IMG/VR virus record: IMGVR_UViG_3300006917_000164
Span: 1-22,831 of that record
Strand: one strand, 5' to 3'
DNA length: 22,831 nucleotides
Source: a virus
Positions 671 to 13,284 of this stretch are shown here, piece after piece. Below the pieces are notes generated by a model. That model was not told where the DNA came from and ran no database searches. It worked only from the letters and a program-made list of their open reading frames with translations. Position 1 is the first letter of the stretch, and the number at the start of each line of letters is the position of its first letter. Position numbers and translations under genes: made by a program.

Positions 671-1321
671 TCAGACGCGACGAACACCGTTGTTCGGGGT
701 TTCCGTCGCAGGGTTATTCATACGCGAAGCCGAACGATCAGCGGCTTTCTTGGTCTCACCGAGGATACGCGCCAGCTCTTCGGGAGACAGCTTGACCTGC
801 TTGGCTTCCGACTTGGTGGTGGACTTGCCGGTGTATTCCCACGGCTCATTGAAGATGTTCATGTAGACCGTCTGGAAGGCGTCCATCAGGTCCATATGCA
901 GATTGTAGCGCGCCTCGTTGACGTAGAACCAATGTTGCGTCTTGAGGTCTTCCTCGTTGATCGTGCCTGTCTTGGCGATCTCTTCCTTGGCCTTGTTCCA
1001 AGCGATCTCCGACTTCAGGAGACGCTGGCGATTGTTGTCGTAGGTGTTGGTGATCTCCTTGCCATCAGCACCCTTCTTGGTGACCGTGATCACGCCGAAG
1101 TTCTGACGATAGAGGTTGGAGAGAACCCCAGAGAGAAGGAAGCGAATACCGTTGTCTCGCGTGGAGGCTTTCTCGACACCGATGTCGGCTTCAGCCATCT
1201 GCTCCTTGAAGACGCCGAAGTTGTCCATCTGATCATCGAGAGCTGCAATCAGCGGGTGGAAGGCGTCCATGAGGCCACGAACGAGGAGAGAGTCGACCTT
1301 GGTGGATTTCTTGGTAGCCAT
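671..1321 (-). CDS. Hypothetical phage protein, 216 aa
   Basis: A soluble, charged protein beginning MATKKSTKVDSLLVRGLMDA. It is predicted largely alpha-helical, with a tryptophan/tyrosine-rich middle (QHWFYVNEARYNLHMDLMDA at about 128-147) and a basic, low-complexity C-terminus. AAAGGAAT sits about 7 bases upstream of the ATG at 1321. There is no signal peptide or membrane segment, and no catalytic motif that I recognise. It is the largest gene of the leftward cluster and is separated from the upstream 75-aa gene by a 153-bp structured spacer. The lysine-rich start and highly ordered core would suit a DNA- or RNA-associated early protein, but this is a guess from composition. Confidence 0.75.
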   Translation of the reverse strand: MATKKSTKVDSLLVRGLMDAFHPLIAALDDQMDNFGVFKEQMAEADIGVEKASTRDNGIRFLLSGVLSNLYRQNFGVITVTKKGADGKEITNTYDNNRQRLLKSEIAWNKAKEEIAKTGTINEEDLKTQHWFYVNEARYNLHMDLMDAFQTVYMNIFNEPWEYTGKSTTKSEAKQVKLSPEELARILGETKKAADRSASRMNNPATETPNNGVRRV

Positions 1322-1474: not shown

Positions 1475-1702
1475 TCACGAACGGACTGTGAGAGCCGAGA
1501 GTTCATTTCTGATTTGCTCGATTGAGCGAGCGTAAGCGACCCATGCTGACTGAACTTCGGTTTTCTCCTGTAACTCCAGAAGAGTCGCGAGAGAGGACTG
1601 CAATACGCGATACCGCCGCTGTTTCCAATTCTCGGCATGATGGTTAATTTTTTGATAACCAGGGCGGTTGTGATAGGAAGGGAAGTAGTGTGTAGCGTTC
1701 AT
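1475..1702 (-). CDS. Hypothetical phage protein, 75 aa
   Basis: Begins MNATHYFPSYHNRPGYQKIN; the rest is one long amphipathic helix with a heptad-like Leu/Ala pattern (VLQSSLATLLELQEKTEVQS), so a coiled coil is likely. The ATG at 1702 overlaps the stop of the upstream 31-aa gene (ATGA), and AGGAGAA lies 6-7 bases upstream. The N-terminal PSYHN is encoded by a third copy of the TTCCTATCAC box (1671-1680), which may be coincidence. The family is unknown. Coupling to two membrane miniproteins suggests a joint role. Confidence 0.68.
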   Translation of the reverse strand: MNATHYFPSYHNRPGYQKINHHAENWKQRRYRVLQSSLATLLELQEKTEVQSAWVAYARSIEQIRNELSALTVRS

Positions 1703-2007: not shown

Positions 2008-2373
2008 GACTCTGCCGGTCCACTCTGGTCGATTTGCGTACTGTCCAGCGCAGCAGTGCTACCGTCGGATCTTCCGCATTCCCTTGGAACCTAGGTCGGC
2101 AGCTCTTTACTTATCTATGTCGTCGTCTGCCGTTGGACGTTAAGAACCACAGCCACAAGAGACTCTGTCAACTACGAGCGACAACGCTGGGCATTACCCC
2201 GAGAGGCGCAGAAGGGAGAGCTCGTTGTTGATAGAGATGAGGCTGTGGTTTAGTCCAACATAAAGGCAGACGGCGGCATAGATAAGTGCTGGTGACAGGA
2301 GACAACGGATGCGGAAGATGCGGCAACACTGGCTGCCCGTCAGCTAGCAAAGCGAGCAGAGTGGACCGGAGTC
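2008..2373. repeat. Long imperfect inverted repeat, candidate structured RNA or origin
   Basis: Two arms of about 170 and 154 nt face each other across a 40-nt loop. Paired blocks, outside to inside: 2015-2027 with 2357-2369 (13 perfect); 2054-2064 with 2321-2331 (9 of 11); 2069-2079 with 2309-2319 (11 perfect); 2109-2131 with 2265-2287 (23 nt, 21 Watson-Crick plus two G-U); 2145-2154 with 2241-2250 (10 perfect); and 2163-2179 with 2220-2236 (17 nt with one G-U and one mismatch). Blocks stay collinear with small internal loops, giving one rod-like fold. The 23-nt block and the innermost block hold their G-U pairs on plus-strand RNA; the 2054 block would hold them on minus-strand RNA, so the transcribed strand is unclear. 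The arms have diverged while keeping pairing, which argues for function. Confidence 0.75.
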
Positions 2374-2423
2374 GTGATTCACACTCTCTCAGCATTCTGC
2401 GATAGGGACACCAACCCGAAGGG

Positions 2424-2467
2424 CAGAGACAAAAGGAATAGACTTCAGGCTATTTCTTTTGGCTCTG
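2424..2467. other. 18-bp hairpin
   Basis: Stem 2424-2441 pairs with 2450-2467 (17 of 18 positions including one G-U; one A-G mismatch) around an 8-nt loop, ACTTCAGG. The middle of the stem is A-rich on one side and T-rich on the other, so it could act as a bidirectional transcription barrier, but there is no T tract directly after the stem on either strand. Confidence 0.6.
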
Positions 2468-2507
2468 TTCATTGGTGGCCCGGCCAAACGAGTCGACTGA
2501 GCGCCGA

Positions 2508-3028: not shown

Positions 3029-3058
3029 TTGACAAGGGCCCATTCTTCATGATATACT
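3029..3058 (+). promoter_or_regulatory. Sigma70-type promoter facing the structural operon
   Basis: TTGACA (3029-3034) and TATACT (3053-3058) are separated by 18 bases, with an A/T-rich stretch upstream that could act as an UP element. Transcription would start near 3065 and run into the leader that ends at the 3213-3257 terminator. A host-RNA-polymerase promoter here would allow the phage to transcribe rightward with the host enzyme. Confidence 0.6.
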
Positions 3059-3067
3059 TTAAGTATA
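3053..3067. promoter_or_regulatory. Operator-like palindrome over the -10 box
   Basis: TATACTTTAAGTATA is a perfect 7-1-7 inverted repeat covering the whole -10 hexamer and reaching about the expected start site. Position and symmetry fit a dimeric repressor site, but an AT-rich palindrome can arise by chance. Confidence 0.35.
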
Positions 3068-3079
3068 GACCTAGGGGAT

Positions 3080-3248
3080 AACCTTAGGTTTAAACAGAAG
3101 GGCCCCTAAAGGCATAATCTGTTTTCCCCTCTGTAACCTTAGGATATAACCTAAGGCATAAACGAGGGTCATAATCAGTAGTTCTGTTTCTTTTCCTTTC
3201 CCTTTCCTAAGAACCTATAGTCTATAACCTAAGGTTATATCCTATAGG
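3080..3248. repeat. Cluster of CCTWAGG-type palindromes in an AT-rich leader
   Basis: The heptamer CCTTAGG or CCTAAGG occurs at 3082-3088, 3137-3143, 3150-3156 and 3228-3234, mostly inside (A)TAACCTWAGG. Related CCTAGG, CCTAAG and CCTATAGG variants lie at about 3070, 3206 and 3241. The 3137/3150 pair forms a 7-bp hairpin with an ATATAA loop. Iterated AT-rich palindromes between a promoter and the first gene fit iterons for a replication initiator or a multi-site operator. Confidence 0.5.
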
Positions 3249-3257
3249 TCTTTTTTT
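3213..3257 (+). terminator. Intrinsic terminator ahead of the structural operon
   Basis: The stem ACCTATAG/CTATAGGT (3213-3220 and 3242-3249) encloses TATAACC/GGTTATA (3223-3229 and 3233-3239) with a 2x2 internal loop and a 3-nt apex. One C follows, then seven Ts (3251-3257) and further T-rich sequence. It lies between the 3029 promoter and the 3317 gene, so it can stop rightward host transcription about 150-190 nt after initiation unless antitermination occurs. Confidence 0.7.
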
Positions 3258-3316: not shown

Positions 3317-3850
3317 ATGGATCAGCGATCCTTTATGGAAAAAGTTAACAACCCCTTCCGTAACCCGGTCTCCAACCAACGCTACACCAAGGGTCTGTTT
3401 TTTGAACAGACGTTGGCCGACAAATCGACGGTCGTCTACACGCTCAAGGATGTAGACCACGAAGGTTACCCGTCCCTTTACAGGCTTTACATGGAGCTGG
3501 ACGATCCCACGGAGTGGGAAGTGGCCCAGAAGCTCGTGGACGGCTGGGAGCACTGGGAGCAGCTTTGTTCGTGTACCTGGTTCAAGCCCTTCATCGAAAG
3601 GTGGCGAAAGGAACTGGAGCTGCGGATGAAGTCCAGGGCTCTGGCCAAGATCAAACAGGAAGCGAAGACAGGCTCCAAGGAAAGCTTCGGAGCCAACAAA
3701 TATCTCCTCGAGAAGGGGTGGGAGCCCAAGGAAGGCTCCAGAAACGGCAGAGGCCGCCCCTCCAAGGATGAAATCAGGAAGGCTGCTGAGGCCATTGCCC
3801 AGACTTCCTCCCAACTCTCAGAAGACTACAAGCGACTAGGATTCCAGTAA
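3317..3850 (+). CDS. terS: Terminase small subunit (DNA packaging), 177 aa
   Basis: Probable small terminase, which recognises phage DNA and loads the large subunit for packaging. The pattern is familiar from podovirus small terminases: a W-x-H-W and WF segment (about 73-87), then a basic helix FIERWRKELELRMKSRALAK, then an Ala/Lys-rich helical stretch with NKYLLEKGWEPKE, a glycine/arginine hinge RGRPSKDE (about 145-152) and a short helical tail. The length fits the family. It is the first gene after the promoter-terminator region but is separated from the large subunit by about 6 kb of tail and lysis genes, an unusual split. The ATG at 3317 is the only sensible start; an ATG at 3293 is followed at once by a stop. 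Family assignment is by remembered pattern, not by search. Confidence 0.62.
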   Translation: MDQRSFMEKVNNPFRNPVSNQRYTKGLFFEQTLADKSTVVYTLKDVDHEGYPSLYRLYMELDDPTEWEVAQKLVDGWEHWEQLCSCTWFKPFIERWRKELELRMKSRALAKIKQEAKTGSKESFGANKYLLEKGWEPKEGSRNGRGRPSKDEIRKAAEAIAQTSSQLSEDYKRLGFQ

Positions 3851-5814: not shown

Positions 5815-8066
5815 TGTTTTTTCAGACGCTCTACCGCACAGTCAGTATCGCCGCGCTAGTATCGTCTGGTGCTATTTCACCTGAGGTTTTTGGCGATTTT
5901 ATTGCCGACCTTGGCGACTACACGACGCTCTCCACCCTGTCCTCCATGCCGACAGACGGCAGCGTGAGCCGCTCGGGCAACGCTTACTATTTCGACAATA
6001 CCGGGACGCTTCAGACGGCGGGCACGAATACGGCTCGGTTTGATTACGCATGGAACGGCTCGGCGTGGGCAGCAAAGGGACTGCTCATTGAAGGCGCGCG
6101 AACCAATGTGTTCCTCAACAGCACGACGCCTGCGACGCAGAGCATCACGGTAACTGCTCAAGCATACACGCTGTCATTTTACGGCACCGGCACGATTACG
6201 CTATCCGGCGCGTCAACCGCAGGCCCTCTCGTCGGGACAGGCGCGAACAACAGGGTTACGCTGACATTCACGCCGAGTGCGGCCAGCCTGACGCTCACTC
6301 TCAGCGGCACGGTGAACTATCCGCAGCTTGAGGCCGGTTCGTTTGCGTCGAGCTATATCGTCTGCGGCGGCACGGCGACGACACGAAATGCGGAGACGTT
6401 TACCCTCGCCAACTACACCAACCGCCTTGTCGAAAGCTTCTACGTTGACGAGCAGACGGGCGGCTCTTGGTCAGCGAACATCGCCCCAAGCGCGACAAGC
6501 CCGCTCTCTATCGGCACGCCGACATTCGGCTGGGTCACGTCTCTGCGCGCGTATCTGAGCGGCGCTGCGGGGTCCATCGCAACGCCAAGCTGGATCGACA
6601 ACAGTGGCACTGTCGGCAACCGGATGATGTATGACAGCACGGGGTTGTTGACGTTCGCCCCGGCAAATTTGCTGACGGGCAGCGCCACCCTGTCAACGCA
6701 AACAGTTACGGACGGCGTTGCGGCAGGGCGAAATTTTGTCCTCTCCTTCAAGGGAACGGGTTCCGTTGTCGTCAAGGAAACGAACTCGGGTGGAACGACG
6801 ATTGTCACCATCAACGGCACTGGCGCGTCAGACCGTGTGTGGGGCGCTTTCACCGCGACTGTTGCGACGCTGTATGTCTCCGTCAGCGGAACGGTTACGG
6901 AAGCACAACTCGAACCCGTCACCTACCAGACCGCCCCACGCCCATATATAGCCACGACCACCGCCGCCATCTATCTCCCCCGCTACGACTATTCGCCCGC
7001 GACCACCCCGGCCACGCCGCTCGGGATGCTGGTGGAAGAGAGCCGGGCGAACCTTGTCACGTATAGCGAACAGTTCAACAATGCCGCGTGGACCGGCAGC
7101 GGCCTTCTGGCATTTGGGTCAGGTTCGACCGCAGACGCTACAGTCGCCCCCAGCGGAACAACGACTGCCGATTTGCTGACGGAAAACTCTTCGACTTCCA
7201 CGCACTATATCGACTGCACGTCGATTACGTTCACAGCCGCCAAATACACGATCTCCGTCTTCGCCAAATACAACGGACGGCGCTACCTGACTATGCAGGG
7301 CAGTTCTGTCGTATTTTCGACGGACATCGCGTCTTTCGACTTGGTGAGCGGATCGGCCTCGTTTGCATCCGCAGGGTCGACAGCGACGATAGCTGCGGTT
7401 GGAAACGGCTGGTATCGGTGTTCGTGGACGATCACGACTGCGGCGGCAAGCGGCGTCGTCACGCTCCTGCTTTCCGATGTATCGGGAACAAGAAGCCGCA
7501 GCTACACAGGCGACGGCGTGTCTGGGATATATCTGTGGGGCGCACAGGTCGAACTCGGAGCATTCCCCACCTCCTACATCCCGAATAACTCCGGCTCCGG
7601 CTCGGTCACGCGCGCAGCGGACATCGTGAAACTGACGGGGTCGGCGCTGACGACGATTGGCGGAACTGCCGGAACTGTTGTCGAGGAAATCAATCTGCGC
7701 GGAACGACAGCCGCCACGCAATACGGCATATACGGCAACAGCGTTTCGCCCGGCTATTTCGACAGCGCGCTTGTCGTGAAGGCGACGAACGGAACGAATG
7801 TGCTGTCCTCTGGAGTGACGGCGGTTGTTGGGACTGCCGGGCGTTTCGGGCTTGCGTGGGACGCTTCTGGGCGCGCTATCAGCTACAGCGGCTCGGCTGC
7901 GGTGACTGACGCCAATGGCTTCGGCACAATCGGTTCGACCGTCTATATTGGCTCAAACAACGCCTCGAACACGGCGAACGGGTGGGTGCGCTCTATGGCG
8001 CTCTACAACCAGAAACTGTCCAGCGCGACGCTTGCCCAGAAAACTACAGTGGGAGCTTCCTACTAA
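5814..8066 (+). CDS. Large modular tail fibre / receptor-binding protein, 750 aa
   Basis: A short N-terminal anchor (1-35) is followed by three beta-sandwich modules of about 200 residues, each closing with a QLE/QVE plus SYI-type signature: QLEAGSFASSYI at 171, QLEP...RPYI at 365 and QVELGAFPTSYIP at 578. The second and third modules are separated by the phrase GMLVEESRANLVTYSEQFNN. The C-terminal 140 residues resemble a concanavalin/LamG-like sandwich ending in a SSATLAQ helix. These are carbohydrate-binding folds typical of fibres that bind surface glycans. I see no polysaccharide-lyase or hydrolase signature. Codon use turns strongly towards CG-rich codons compared with the genes before 5814 and after 8482, a sign of module exchange. 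Confidence 0.75.
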   Translation: MFFQTLYRTVSIAALVSSGAISPEVFGDFIADLGDYTTLSTLSSMPTDGSVSRSGNAYYFDNTGTLQTAGTNTARFDYAWNGSAWAAKGLLIEGARTNVFLNSTTPATQSITVTAQAYTLSFYGTGTITLSGASTAGPLVGTGANNRVTLTFTPSAASLTLTLSGTVNYPQLEAGSFASSYIVCGGTATTRNAETFTLANYTNRLVESFYVDEQTGGSWSANIAPSATSPLSIGTPTFGWVTSLRAYLSGAAGSIATPSWIDNSGTVGNRMMYDSTGLLTFAPANLLTGSATLSTQTVTDGVAAGRNFVLSFKGTGSVVVKETNSGGTTIVTINGTGASDRVWGAFTATVATLYVSVSGTVTEAQLEPVTYQTAPRPYIATTTAAIYLPRYDYSPATTPATPLGMLVEESRANLVTYSEQFNNAAWTGSGLLAFGSGSTADATVAPSGTTTADLLTENSSTSTHYIDCTSITFTAAKYTISVFAKYNGRRYLTMQGSSVVFSTDIASFDLVSGSASFASAGSTATIAAVGNGWYRCSWTITTAAASGVVTLLLSDVSGTRSRSYTGDGVSGIYLWGAQVELGAFPTSYIPNNSGSGSVTRAADIVKLTGSALTTIGGTAGTVVEEINLRGTTAATQYGIYGNSVSPGYFDSALVVKATNGTNVLSSGVTAVVGTAGRFGLAWDASGRAISYSGSAAVTDANGFGTIGSTVYIGSNNASNTANGWVRSMALYNQKLSSATLAQKTTVGASY

Positions 8067-11433: not shown

Positions 11434-13284
11434 TTGGTTGGTCGCGTATTCGATATTGACGCTGCGGTAACTGAGGACCAACTCGCTACCCGCATTTCGC
11501 AGCAATACATCCAATGGGAAATCTATCGCCAGGAAAAGGTGAAGCAATGGGAGGAGCTGCGGAGGTACGTCTATGCCACGGATACCCGCACTACTACCAA
11601 CGCTACTCTCCCATGGAAAAACACTACAACCATTCCCAAGCTTTGCCAGATCAGAGACAATCTCTTTTCCAACTATATGGCTTCTCTCTTTCCCAAGAGG
11701 AAGTGGCTGGTTTGGCAGGCTGACTCGAAGGAAGACTCCAAGAGGCAAAAGAAGGAAGCCATCACCGACTACATGAAATACGTCATCGATCAGGACGGTT
11801 TCAAGAAGGAGATGGCCAAACTCATCCTCGACTACATCGACTACGGCAATTGCTTCGCTACCGTCGAATGGAAGGACGAGACCCAGGAGCTCGAGGACAA
11901 AACCCAGGTCGGCTATGTCGGCCCCGGCATCAAGAGGATCTCGCCTCTCGACATTGTCATGAACCCCACGGGGTCTGACTTCATCAACACCCCGAAGATC
12001 ATCCGCTCCATCCTCACCAAGGGTGAGGTCAAGGAGCTCCTCTCGAGACTCTCCACAGACGCCACCCAGACGCAGTACGAAGAGCTCTGGGACTATATGA
12101 AGAGCCTCCGGAGCCATGCGTCGAACTTCTCGACCACCACGGAAAAGTCGAAGAATGACATCTACCGGGTCGACGGCTTCACCTCCTACCGGGCCTACCT
12201 TCAGTCCGATTATGTCGAACTCCTTACCTTCTACGGCGACATCTACGACGAAGAATCGGACGAGTTCCTTCGAAATCACGTTATTGTGGTTGCTGATCGT
12301 CATAAGCTTATTCACAAATCTCCCAATCCCTCCTTCTTTGGACACCCCCCGATCTACCATGTCGGATGGCGTGTAAGGCAGGACAACCTCTGGGCCATGG
12401 GCCCGCTCGATAATCTCGTCGGTATGCAATACCGCATCGACCATGTCGAGAACCTGAAATCGGACGTCTTCGATCTCCTGACCTTCCCGCCTCTCAAGGT
12501 AAAAGGCTTCGTGGAGGACTTCAAATGGGGACCCTTTGAAAAGATCTTTGTGGGCGATGACGGAGATGTCGATATCCTCGCGCCTCCTTTTCAGGTGCTC
12601 CAGGCCAACACAGAAATCGATATTCTCCAACAGCGTATGGAGGAAATGGCGGGCTCCCCGAAGGAGGCCATGGGTTTCAGGACCCCCGGAGAGAAGACTG
12701 CCTATGAGGTCCAGCGCCTCGAAAATGCGGCGTCGAGGATCTTCGCAAACAAAATTTCTCAATTCGAAGAACAACTGCTGGAACGACTCCTGAACGCCAT
12801 GCTGGAACTGGCGAGACGGAGTATGACCTCGACCTCCATCAGGGTCTTCGACGACCAGATGAAGATCGAGACCTTCCGGACCCTCACCCCGGACGACATC
12901 ACCGGCAACGGTCGCATTCGTCCCATGGCGGCGAGACACTTCGCTGAAAAGGCCGAGACGGTCCAGAACCTGAACAACTTCTTCGCTTCGGCCCTCGGAG
13001 CCGATCCCGACATCAAGGCGCACTTCAGCTCGATCAAGCTGGCGGAGCTGTTCGAGGATCTTCTCGAGGTCCAGGATTACGAAATCGTCCAGCCCTACAT
13101 CCGGCTCTCGGAACAGGCGGACGCCCAGAGACTCGCTCAGGCGCATCAGCAACAGGTTGCGATGGAAGCCCAGACCCCGGCGGGCATCTCGGCAGACGAC
13201 TTCGACCAAGACATGCAAGGAATGCCGAATGGGTCTCCCAACCCCATGGGTCCGCCACCTCAAGGAGCAGGACCGCAAGGATAA
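11434..13284 (+). CDS. Portal (head-tail connector) protein, 616 aa
   Basis: Ring-forming protein at the capsid vertex through which DNA enters and leaves. Position (directly after the large terminase), length, a tyrosine/arginine-rich N-terminal region and the PGEKTAYEVQRLENAASRIF segment (about 419-438) fit podovirus portals. This segment, with the following long helix to LELARRSMT, corresponds to the stem/crown helices. The C-terminus is Gln/Ala-rich then Gly/Pro-rich (PNGSPNPMGPPPQGAGPQG), probably disordered. The start is TTG, one base after the terminase stop. The last 56 bases overlap the next small gene in another frame. Confidence 0.88.
   Translation: MVGRVFDIDAAVTEDQLATRISQQYIQWEIYRQEKVKQWEELRRYVYATDTRTTTNATLPWKNTTTIPKLCQIRDNLFSNYMASLFPKRKWLVWQADSKEDSKRQKKEAITDYMKYVIDQDGFKKEMAKLILDYIDYGNCFATVEWKDETQELEDKTQVGYVGPGIKRISPLDIVMNPTGSDFINTPKIIRSILTKGEVKELLSRLSTDATQTQYEELWDYMKSLRSHASNFSTTTEKSKNDIYRVDGFTSYRAYLQSDYVELLTFYGDIYDEESDEFLRNHVIVVADRHKLIHKSPNPSFFGHPPIYHVGWRVRQDNLWAMGPLDNLVGMQYRIDHVENLKSDVFDLLTFPPLKVKGFVEDFKWGPFEKIFVGDDGDVDILAPPFQVLQANTEIDILQQRMEEMAGSPKEAMGFRTPGEKTAYEVQRLENAASRIFANKISQFEEQLLERLLNAMLELARRSMTSTSIRVFDDQMKIETFRTLTPDDITGNGRIRPMAARHFAEKAETVQNLNNFFASALGADPDIKAHFSSIKLAELFEDLLEVQDYEIVQPYIRLSEQADAQRLAQAHQQQVAMEAQTPAGISADDFDQDMQGMPNGSPNPMGPPPQGAGPQG

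Follow-up and report, generated by a model that had tools for sequence, protein, structure and literature searches.

The divergent intergenic region of this phage raises the question of what a 366-nt imperfect inverted repeat (here called the rod) does between two sets of genes that point away from each other. The window, by which we mean the whole stretch of DNA analyzed, is a 22.8-kb viral sequence record. Its terminase, portal, capsid, and tail proteins are those of a tailed phage resembling the Zobellviridae, and the portal is 49% identical to that of Vibrio phage ICP2. The rightward genes from position 3317 include those for the large terminase, portal, capsid, tail, and endolysin, and a gene of the same PHROG as the putative small terminase gene is found directly 5′ of the large terminase in several Zobellviridae. 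No conjugative-plasmid transfer genes were seen among the window proteins tested. The repeat does lie, as had been described, in the divergent intergenic region, with the two leftward ORFs on one side and the small terminase gene on the other (Table 1). The 216-aa product of the second leftward ORF was modeled with AlphaFold2 at low confidence (pLDDT of 57) as mostly helices. Since the strong sigma-70-like promoter predicted at 3029-3058 belongs to the rightward genes, the rod and the hairpin described below would be upstream of the terminase transcript and outside it.

Table 1. Coordinates of features in and around the divergent intergenic region of the window
Feature	Position	Strand	Basis or remark
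Second leftward ORF, 216 aa, family not assigned	671..1321	-	L083 homologue; weak similarity to L134 leftward gene
First leftward ORF	1475..1702	-	Would be read by Frpo-type transcription; L083 homologue at same place
Rod 5′ arm; inferred template arm for leftward transcription leaving the hairpin	2008..2179	+	Fold
Rod apical segment, 40 nt, weakly paired	2180..2219	+	Fold
Rod 3′ arm, core TCCAACATAAAGGCAGAC kept in L083	2220..2373	+	Fold; L083 alignment
Weak candidate promoter in rod 3′ arm: TTGATA, 15 nt, TTTAGT	2228..2254	+	Sigma-70 scan; alone no stronger than chance
Frpo/ssi-type hairpin: P1, GAA mini-hairpin, P2 with variable apical stem	2405..2481	+	Model R1, E value of 6e-17 (hairpin is in the training set, so not independent)
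Sigma-70-like promoter TTGACA-18-TATACT, for rightward late genes	3029..3058	+	Promoter scan; equivalent in L083
Putative small terminase gene	3317..3850	+	PHROG 8035, unnamed in PHROGs

The inverted repeat itself was confirmed, with the arms and apical segment given in Table 1. Its arms contain four ungapped blocks of 13 to 26 nt with 88 to 93% complementarity, which the fold joins into one rod. Folded as RNA, the rod had a minimum free energy of -200.9 kcal/mol for the + strand and -191.4 kcal/mol for the - strand (z scores of -11.1 and -10.8), and in the comparison of both strands with shuffled sequence that the preliminary description had proposed, none of 100 shuffles was as good as the rod on either strand. 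With DNA parameters, the z score was -10.6, and the inverted-repeat score was 145, whereas no shuffle exceeded 71. The proposal of a long single rod was correct, but the + strand fold gave 133 pairs (76 GC, 51 AT, and 6 GT) rather than the approximately 150 claimed. The statement that differences between the arms are often G-U compatible proved to be overstated, since G-T accounted for only 4.5% of the rod pairs. A naive sigma-70 scan found no convincing -35/-10 pair in the rod, and the same scan also fails on the Frpo of plasmid F. Opposite the weak candidate promoter, the paired 5′ arm carries a candidate box at 2166-2171 (TGTCAA) which reads TTGACA on the complement. Rfam searches at E values up to 10 returned chance matches only, for both the rod and the hairpin.

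When exact patterns of the rod core were searched for in IMG/VR, they were found only in contig 3300011338_000680 (L083), which is the nearest relative of the window, with a small terminase 67% identical. The L083 rod lies between homologous leftward ORFs (28% and 36% identity) and the terminase gene, with z scores of -7.0 as RNA and -5 to -9 as DNA. In this comparison, which involves one close relative, the outer rod arms were largely diverged with pairing retained, and the common core comprised GTCGGCAGCTCTTTACTTATCTATGT..GTCTGCCGTTGGA in the 5′ arm (2095-2138 of the window) and TCCAACA(A)TAAAGGCAGAC in the 3′ arm. The suggestion that the fold has been maintained gained support from L083, which has a rod in the corresponding position, and also from the adjacent hairpin, which strongly covaries. 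This hairpin became apparent because conservation between the window and L083 continues just past the rod, to 2405-2481 in the window and 5341-5396 in L083. The inverted repeat is real but makes up only half of the feature; the preliminary description had missed the conserved hairpin.

The hairpin is located approximately 31 to 32 nt 3′ of the rod on the same strand and has the consensus GGGAYAC..CCCGAAGGGCARAGAC..GGCTYTGTTCA..GCCC. Its stem P1 is ACCAA/TTGGT in the window and ACTCA/TGAGT in L083, and is followed by a CCC-GAA-GGG mini-hairpin and P2. A first pattern search recovered the hairpin from more than a dozen further viral contigs, others came from a second pattern, and a relaxed pattern produced 112 stretches. 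The first 15 contigs were recruited by a pattern that fixed the GAA loop, and for these the loop is therefore not independent evidence. Among the elements, which were recruited by pattern from metagenomic contigs, two P2 positions that the relaxed pattern had left free were complementary in 77 of 81 distinct elements. For 18 phage hairpins, 97.5% of the cells paired, and 9 pairs were changed on both sides compared with 3.9 in shuffles.

Frpo is a promoter of conjugative plasmids that acts on single-stranded DNA (ssDNA), switching genes on just after cell entry, when the DNA arrives single stranded. A covariance model, R1, was built from phage hairpins only, so that the F plasmid Frpo1 and Frpo2 were outside the training set. 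R1 nevertheless matched plasmid F (L133) at 6112-6167 (E value of 4.8e-10) and 11500-11555 (E value of 1.2e-8), and it also matched the leading regions of other plasmids with E values down to 3.7e-14, whereas a control of 837 kb of other viral loci gave zero matches. Both F matches fell inside an 89% identical repeat pair, one copy being upstream of ssb and the other upstream of an ORF that precedes a DUF932 gene. These positions agree with those published for Frpo2, upstream of ssb, and for Frpo1 in the paper that describes Frpo function in F (PMC9849209), and the F matches were therefore assigned to Frpo1 and Frpo2. A blastn search of plasmids with the hairpin consensus matched about 100 plasmids, and those of the F type that were examined carry the hairpin between TraM and psiB, within the leading region.

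The resemblance to F extends to the arrangement of the locus. On the transferred strand, both F copies show a rod of approximately 320 nt followed by the hairpin, the order seen in the window. In the phage set and the F-type plasmids, the 400 nt 5′ of the hairpin was strongly structured and the 3′ side was not; this difference persisted in the wider hairpin set (paired Wilcoxon test, P value of 5e-5), yet many of its members lacked a rod. In nearly all of the terminase-associated phages, including the window and L083, the genes flanking the hairpin on its 5′ side are directed away from it, as are psiB and ssb in plasmid leading regions and the 5′-side genes of Frpo1/Frpo2 (ssiD). There are also differences. 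The gap between rod and hairpin is about 31 nt in the window but approximately 110 nt, with extra hairpins, in F, and the rods of the window and F have no detectable sequence similarity and could not be aligned, similarity being confined to the hairpins. Moreover, F is a conjugative plasmid, the leading region of which has neighboring transfer genes and oriT, whereas the window is from a tailed double-stranded DNA (dsDNA) phage without oriT and encodes phage structural genes. Frpo-like promoters are widespread in conjugative elements (PMC11541004), and no report of Frpo in phages was found among the open-access papers listed.

The loops of the mini-hairpin are suggestive of a DNA fold. GNA and GNNA loops closed by C-G form unusually stable DNA hairpins, and nearly every mini-hairpin loop took the form C[GNA]G or C[GNNA]G. 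In one tally, triloops were GNA in 37 of 37 cases (one, in L122, probably a chance match) and tetraloops were GNNA in 8 of 9, the other being TTTA; the exceptions in the relaxed-pattern set were AAC, AGC, TTTA, TTCA, and GCAG. Several observed loops (GACA, GCCA, and GTCA) are outside the GNRA class of RNA. Juxtapositions of G-T outnumbered those of A-C on the + strand (209 versus 157 over 17 loci). G-U content was also tried as a strict test of RNA versus DNA and was set aside, as both strands were below shuffles and the support was weak. The hairpin was further found at both ends of the contigs L223 (whole, 4,526 bases) and L226 (whole, 6,576 bases), which correspond to circular genomes of approximately 4.4 and 6.4 kb. 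Both encode a Phage_F capsid and a REP protein, indicating that they are microvirus-type ssDNA phages, and they carry the hairpin on the gene-sense strand, which in such phages is the packaged strand. In these genomes it is a candidate complementary-strand origin.

Within the Zobellviridae-like phages, the rod and hairpin were found together in the window and L083, and probably also in L113 and L117; the hairpin of L121, from the same group, had no rod within 400 nt, that of L134 was also without a rod, and many hairpins of the wider phage set had none within 400 nt. The combination was also present in a second, podovirus-like group (L095, L099, L135-L141, L107, and L110), whose small terminase (Terminase_2) is unrelated and which has a connector of PHROG 332 and a capsid of PHROG 3437. 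In both groups the combination is found between leftward genes and the small terminase. Among 50,697 sequenced phages, no DNA similarity to the rod was found, and the hairpin was absent at blastn sensitivity. It was also absent from most other Zobellviridae loci examined and from EXVC031P, MEP301, and BcepC6B, the reference phages reached via the large terminase of the second group, while the divergent regions of SIO1, CRP-5, and ICBM2 had neither rod nor hairpin. In Lentibacter phage ICBM2, strong inverted repeats were observed inside a tail-protein gene (L090:560-830). An inverted repeat with the same synteny in L082 was rejected as a relative of the rod, being a Fur-box-like tandem repeat array; tandem GAATGATAATCATTCGCA-like repeats resembling Fur boxes occupy L082:8021-8260, in the divergent region that precedes a small terminase gene of Zobellvirus type. 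Four contigs classed as viral (L167, L188, L212, and L220, with parents G014, G034, G050, and G054) hold four to six hairpin copies on both strands and may be phages, phage-plasmids, or misclassified conjugative elements. A hairpin (E value of 2e-9) was also seen at L156:3879-3934, on a 736-kb Palleronia abyssalis contig, directly upstream of a 436-aa ORF, in what is probably an integrated mobile element.

From the computed fold, the homology of the hairpin to Frpo1 and Frpo2 of F, the rod-then-hairpin order on one strand, the direction of the neighboring genes, and the finding that ssDNA phages carry the hairpin on their gene-sense strand, we consider it likely that 2008-2481 is a single-strand initiation locus of the Frpo/ssi type, at which the host polymerase would start leftward transcripts or primers. 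In the proposed mechanism, the + strand, once exposed as a single strand, would fold to form both the long rod and the small hairpin, and by homology with Frpo the folded strand would be recognized as a promoter by host RNA polymerase. The polymerase would then copy the + strand in the leftward direction, through the ORFs at 1475-1702 and 671-1321, which are probably early genes; alternatively, the product would be a primer for complementary-strand synthesis. On return of the region to the double-stranded state, the fold would be lost and the site turned off. A single-stranded stage has to be assumed, since the phage is a dsDNA phage. Speculatively, ssDNA might come from replication or from 5′ end resection near a genome terminus, and if the genome end is to the right of the hairpin, resection in the 5′-to-3′ direction would expose exactly the + strand. 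Such a route would be consistent with ICBM2, where the equivalent region contains the terminal repeat.

The main rival is a strict ssi site, that is, a complementary- or lagging-strand origin that primes DNA synthesis only and has no role in gene expression. The F Frpo also primes DNA synthesis, according to Masai and Arai 1997 as cited in PMC7736820, and in the microvirus-type phages a leftward transcript from the hairpin would run antisense to the genes and could serve only as a primer. In the window and most terminase-associated phages, nevertheless, the copied side carries genes oriented for expression, and we regard a site confined to priming as rather unlikely, while noting that a primer role need not exclude gene expression. 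The origin cruciform or replication hairpin suggested earlier was the closest of the three options in the preliminary description, as ssDNA is the template on which Frpo/ssi sites initiate transcripts and primers. The phage structured RNA, also among them, is not favored. A packaging or regulatory RNA acting in trans would require the rod and hairpin to be transcribed from the + strand, and z scores near -11 as RNA, the conserved core in L083, and the covariation of the hairpin are all compatible with it, as is the slight excess of G-T over A-C on the + strand, which fits + strand ssDNA equally well. Against it, there was no Rfam match and no promoter-like site on the + strand upstream of 2008, the loops are GNA/GNNA, G-T is rare in the rod and below the shuffled level, and homologous hairpins occur on the gene-sense strand of ssDNA phages and in F, where the homologue is a known ssDNA promoter. 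We therefore judge this explanation improbable.

Equally improbable, in our assessment, is a site for terminase recognition or concatemer processing beside a genome end, comparable to the hairpins proposed in T7 end formation. In two terminase groups that are unrelated to each other, the hairpin is near the gene for the small terminase, and the terminal repeat of ICBM2 lies in the region equivalent to the divergent region of the window; however, most Zobellviridae lack the hairpin yet package DNA, and conjugative plasmids, which do not undergo packaging, commonly carry it. A functionless mobile repeat or recent inverted duplication might account for the contigs that hold several copies of the hairpin, but it is very hard to reconcile with the same syntenic position in the window and L083, the diverged arms and compensatory changes, the one-sided placement, and the deep spread across plasmids and phages, and we give it almost no weight.

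The favored explanation, an Frpo/ssi-type locus, has partial parallels in other phage systems. The complementary-strand origin of M13-type phages is an ssDNA hairpin read by sigma-70 RNA polymerase and resembles the locus in the proposed start of host polymerase on folded ssDNA, but it is a far smaller site in an ssDNA genome, and the likeness to the window is one of proposed action. The promoters of the phage N4 virion RNA polymerase are likewise formed by small-loop DNA hairpins, but these comprise just a few base pairs and are used by a virion-encoded polymerase. The phi29 pRNA, a 174-nt packaging RNA, is likewise a structured element located close to packaging genes and an end of the genome; it is an RNA, whereas the feature in the window has no Rfam match and the evidence points to DNA.

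If the Frpo/ssi reading is true, part of the genome of a dsDNA tailed phage is single stranded and transcribed during infection, and the data suggest that some such phages expose and use ssDNA at a key moment of infection. A broader proposal, which we put forward tentatively and would not yet call probable, is that at least two unrelated groups of tailed dsDNA phages use Frpo-type promoters beside the terminase/early-gene boundary, that an obligatory ssDNA stage serves as a timer or sensor for early expression, and that the hairpin module is common to conjugative plasmids and microvirus-type phages. One DNA-level signal would then link plasmids, microvirus-type phages, and tailed phages, and the covariance model can find more examples. 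Since the plasmid genes behind Frpo are rich in anti-defense functions (PMC11541004), the leftward genes of the phage are candidates for such functions as well.

Two repeat arrangements were also observed in the DNA flanking the locus. A 17-nt direct repeat, TTGTGATAGGAAGNGAA, occurs at 1668-1684 and 1888-1904, ahead of the leftward ORFs, and is perhaps a repeated leader or regulatory sequence. After the late promoter, the A+T-rich region at 3060-3250 contains repeated palindromic CCTAAGG/CCTTAGG boxes, with similar boxes at 5810-5950 of L083, and is possibly an operator, iteron, or terminal-repeat region.
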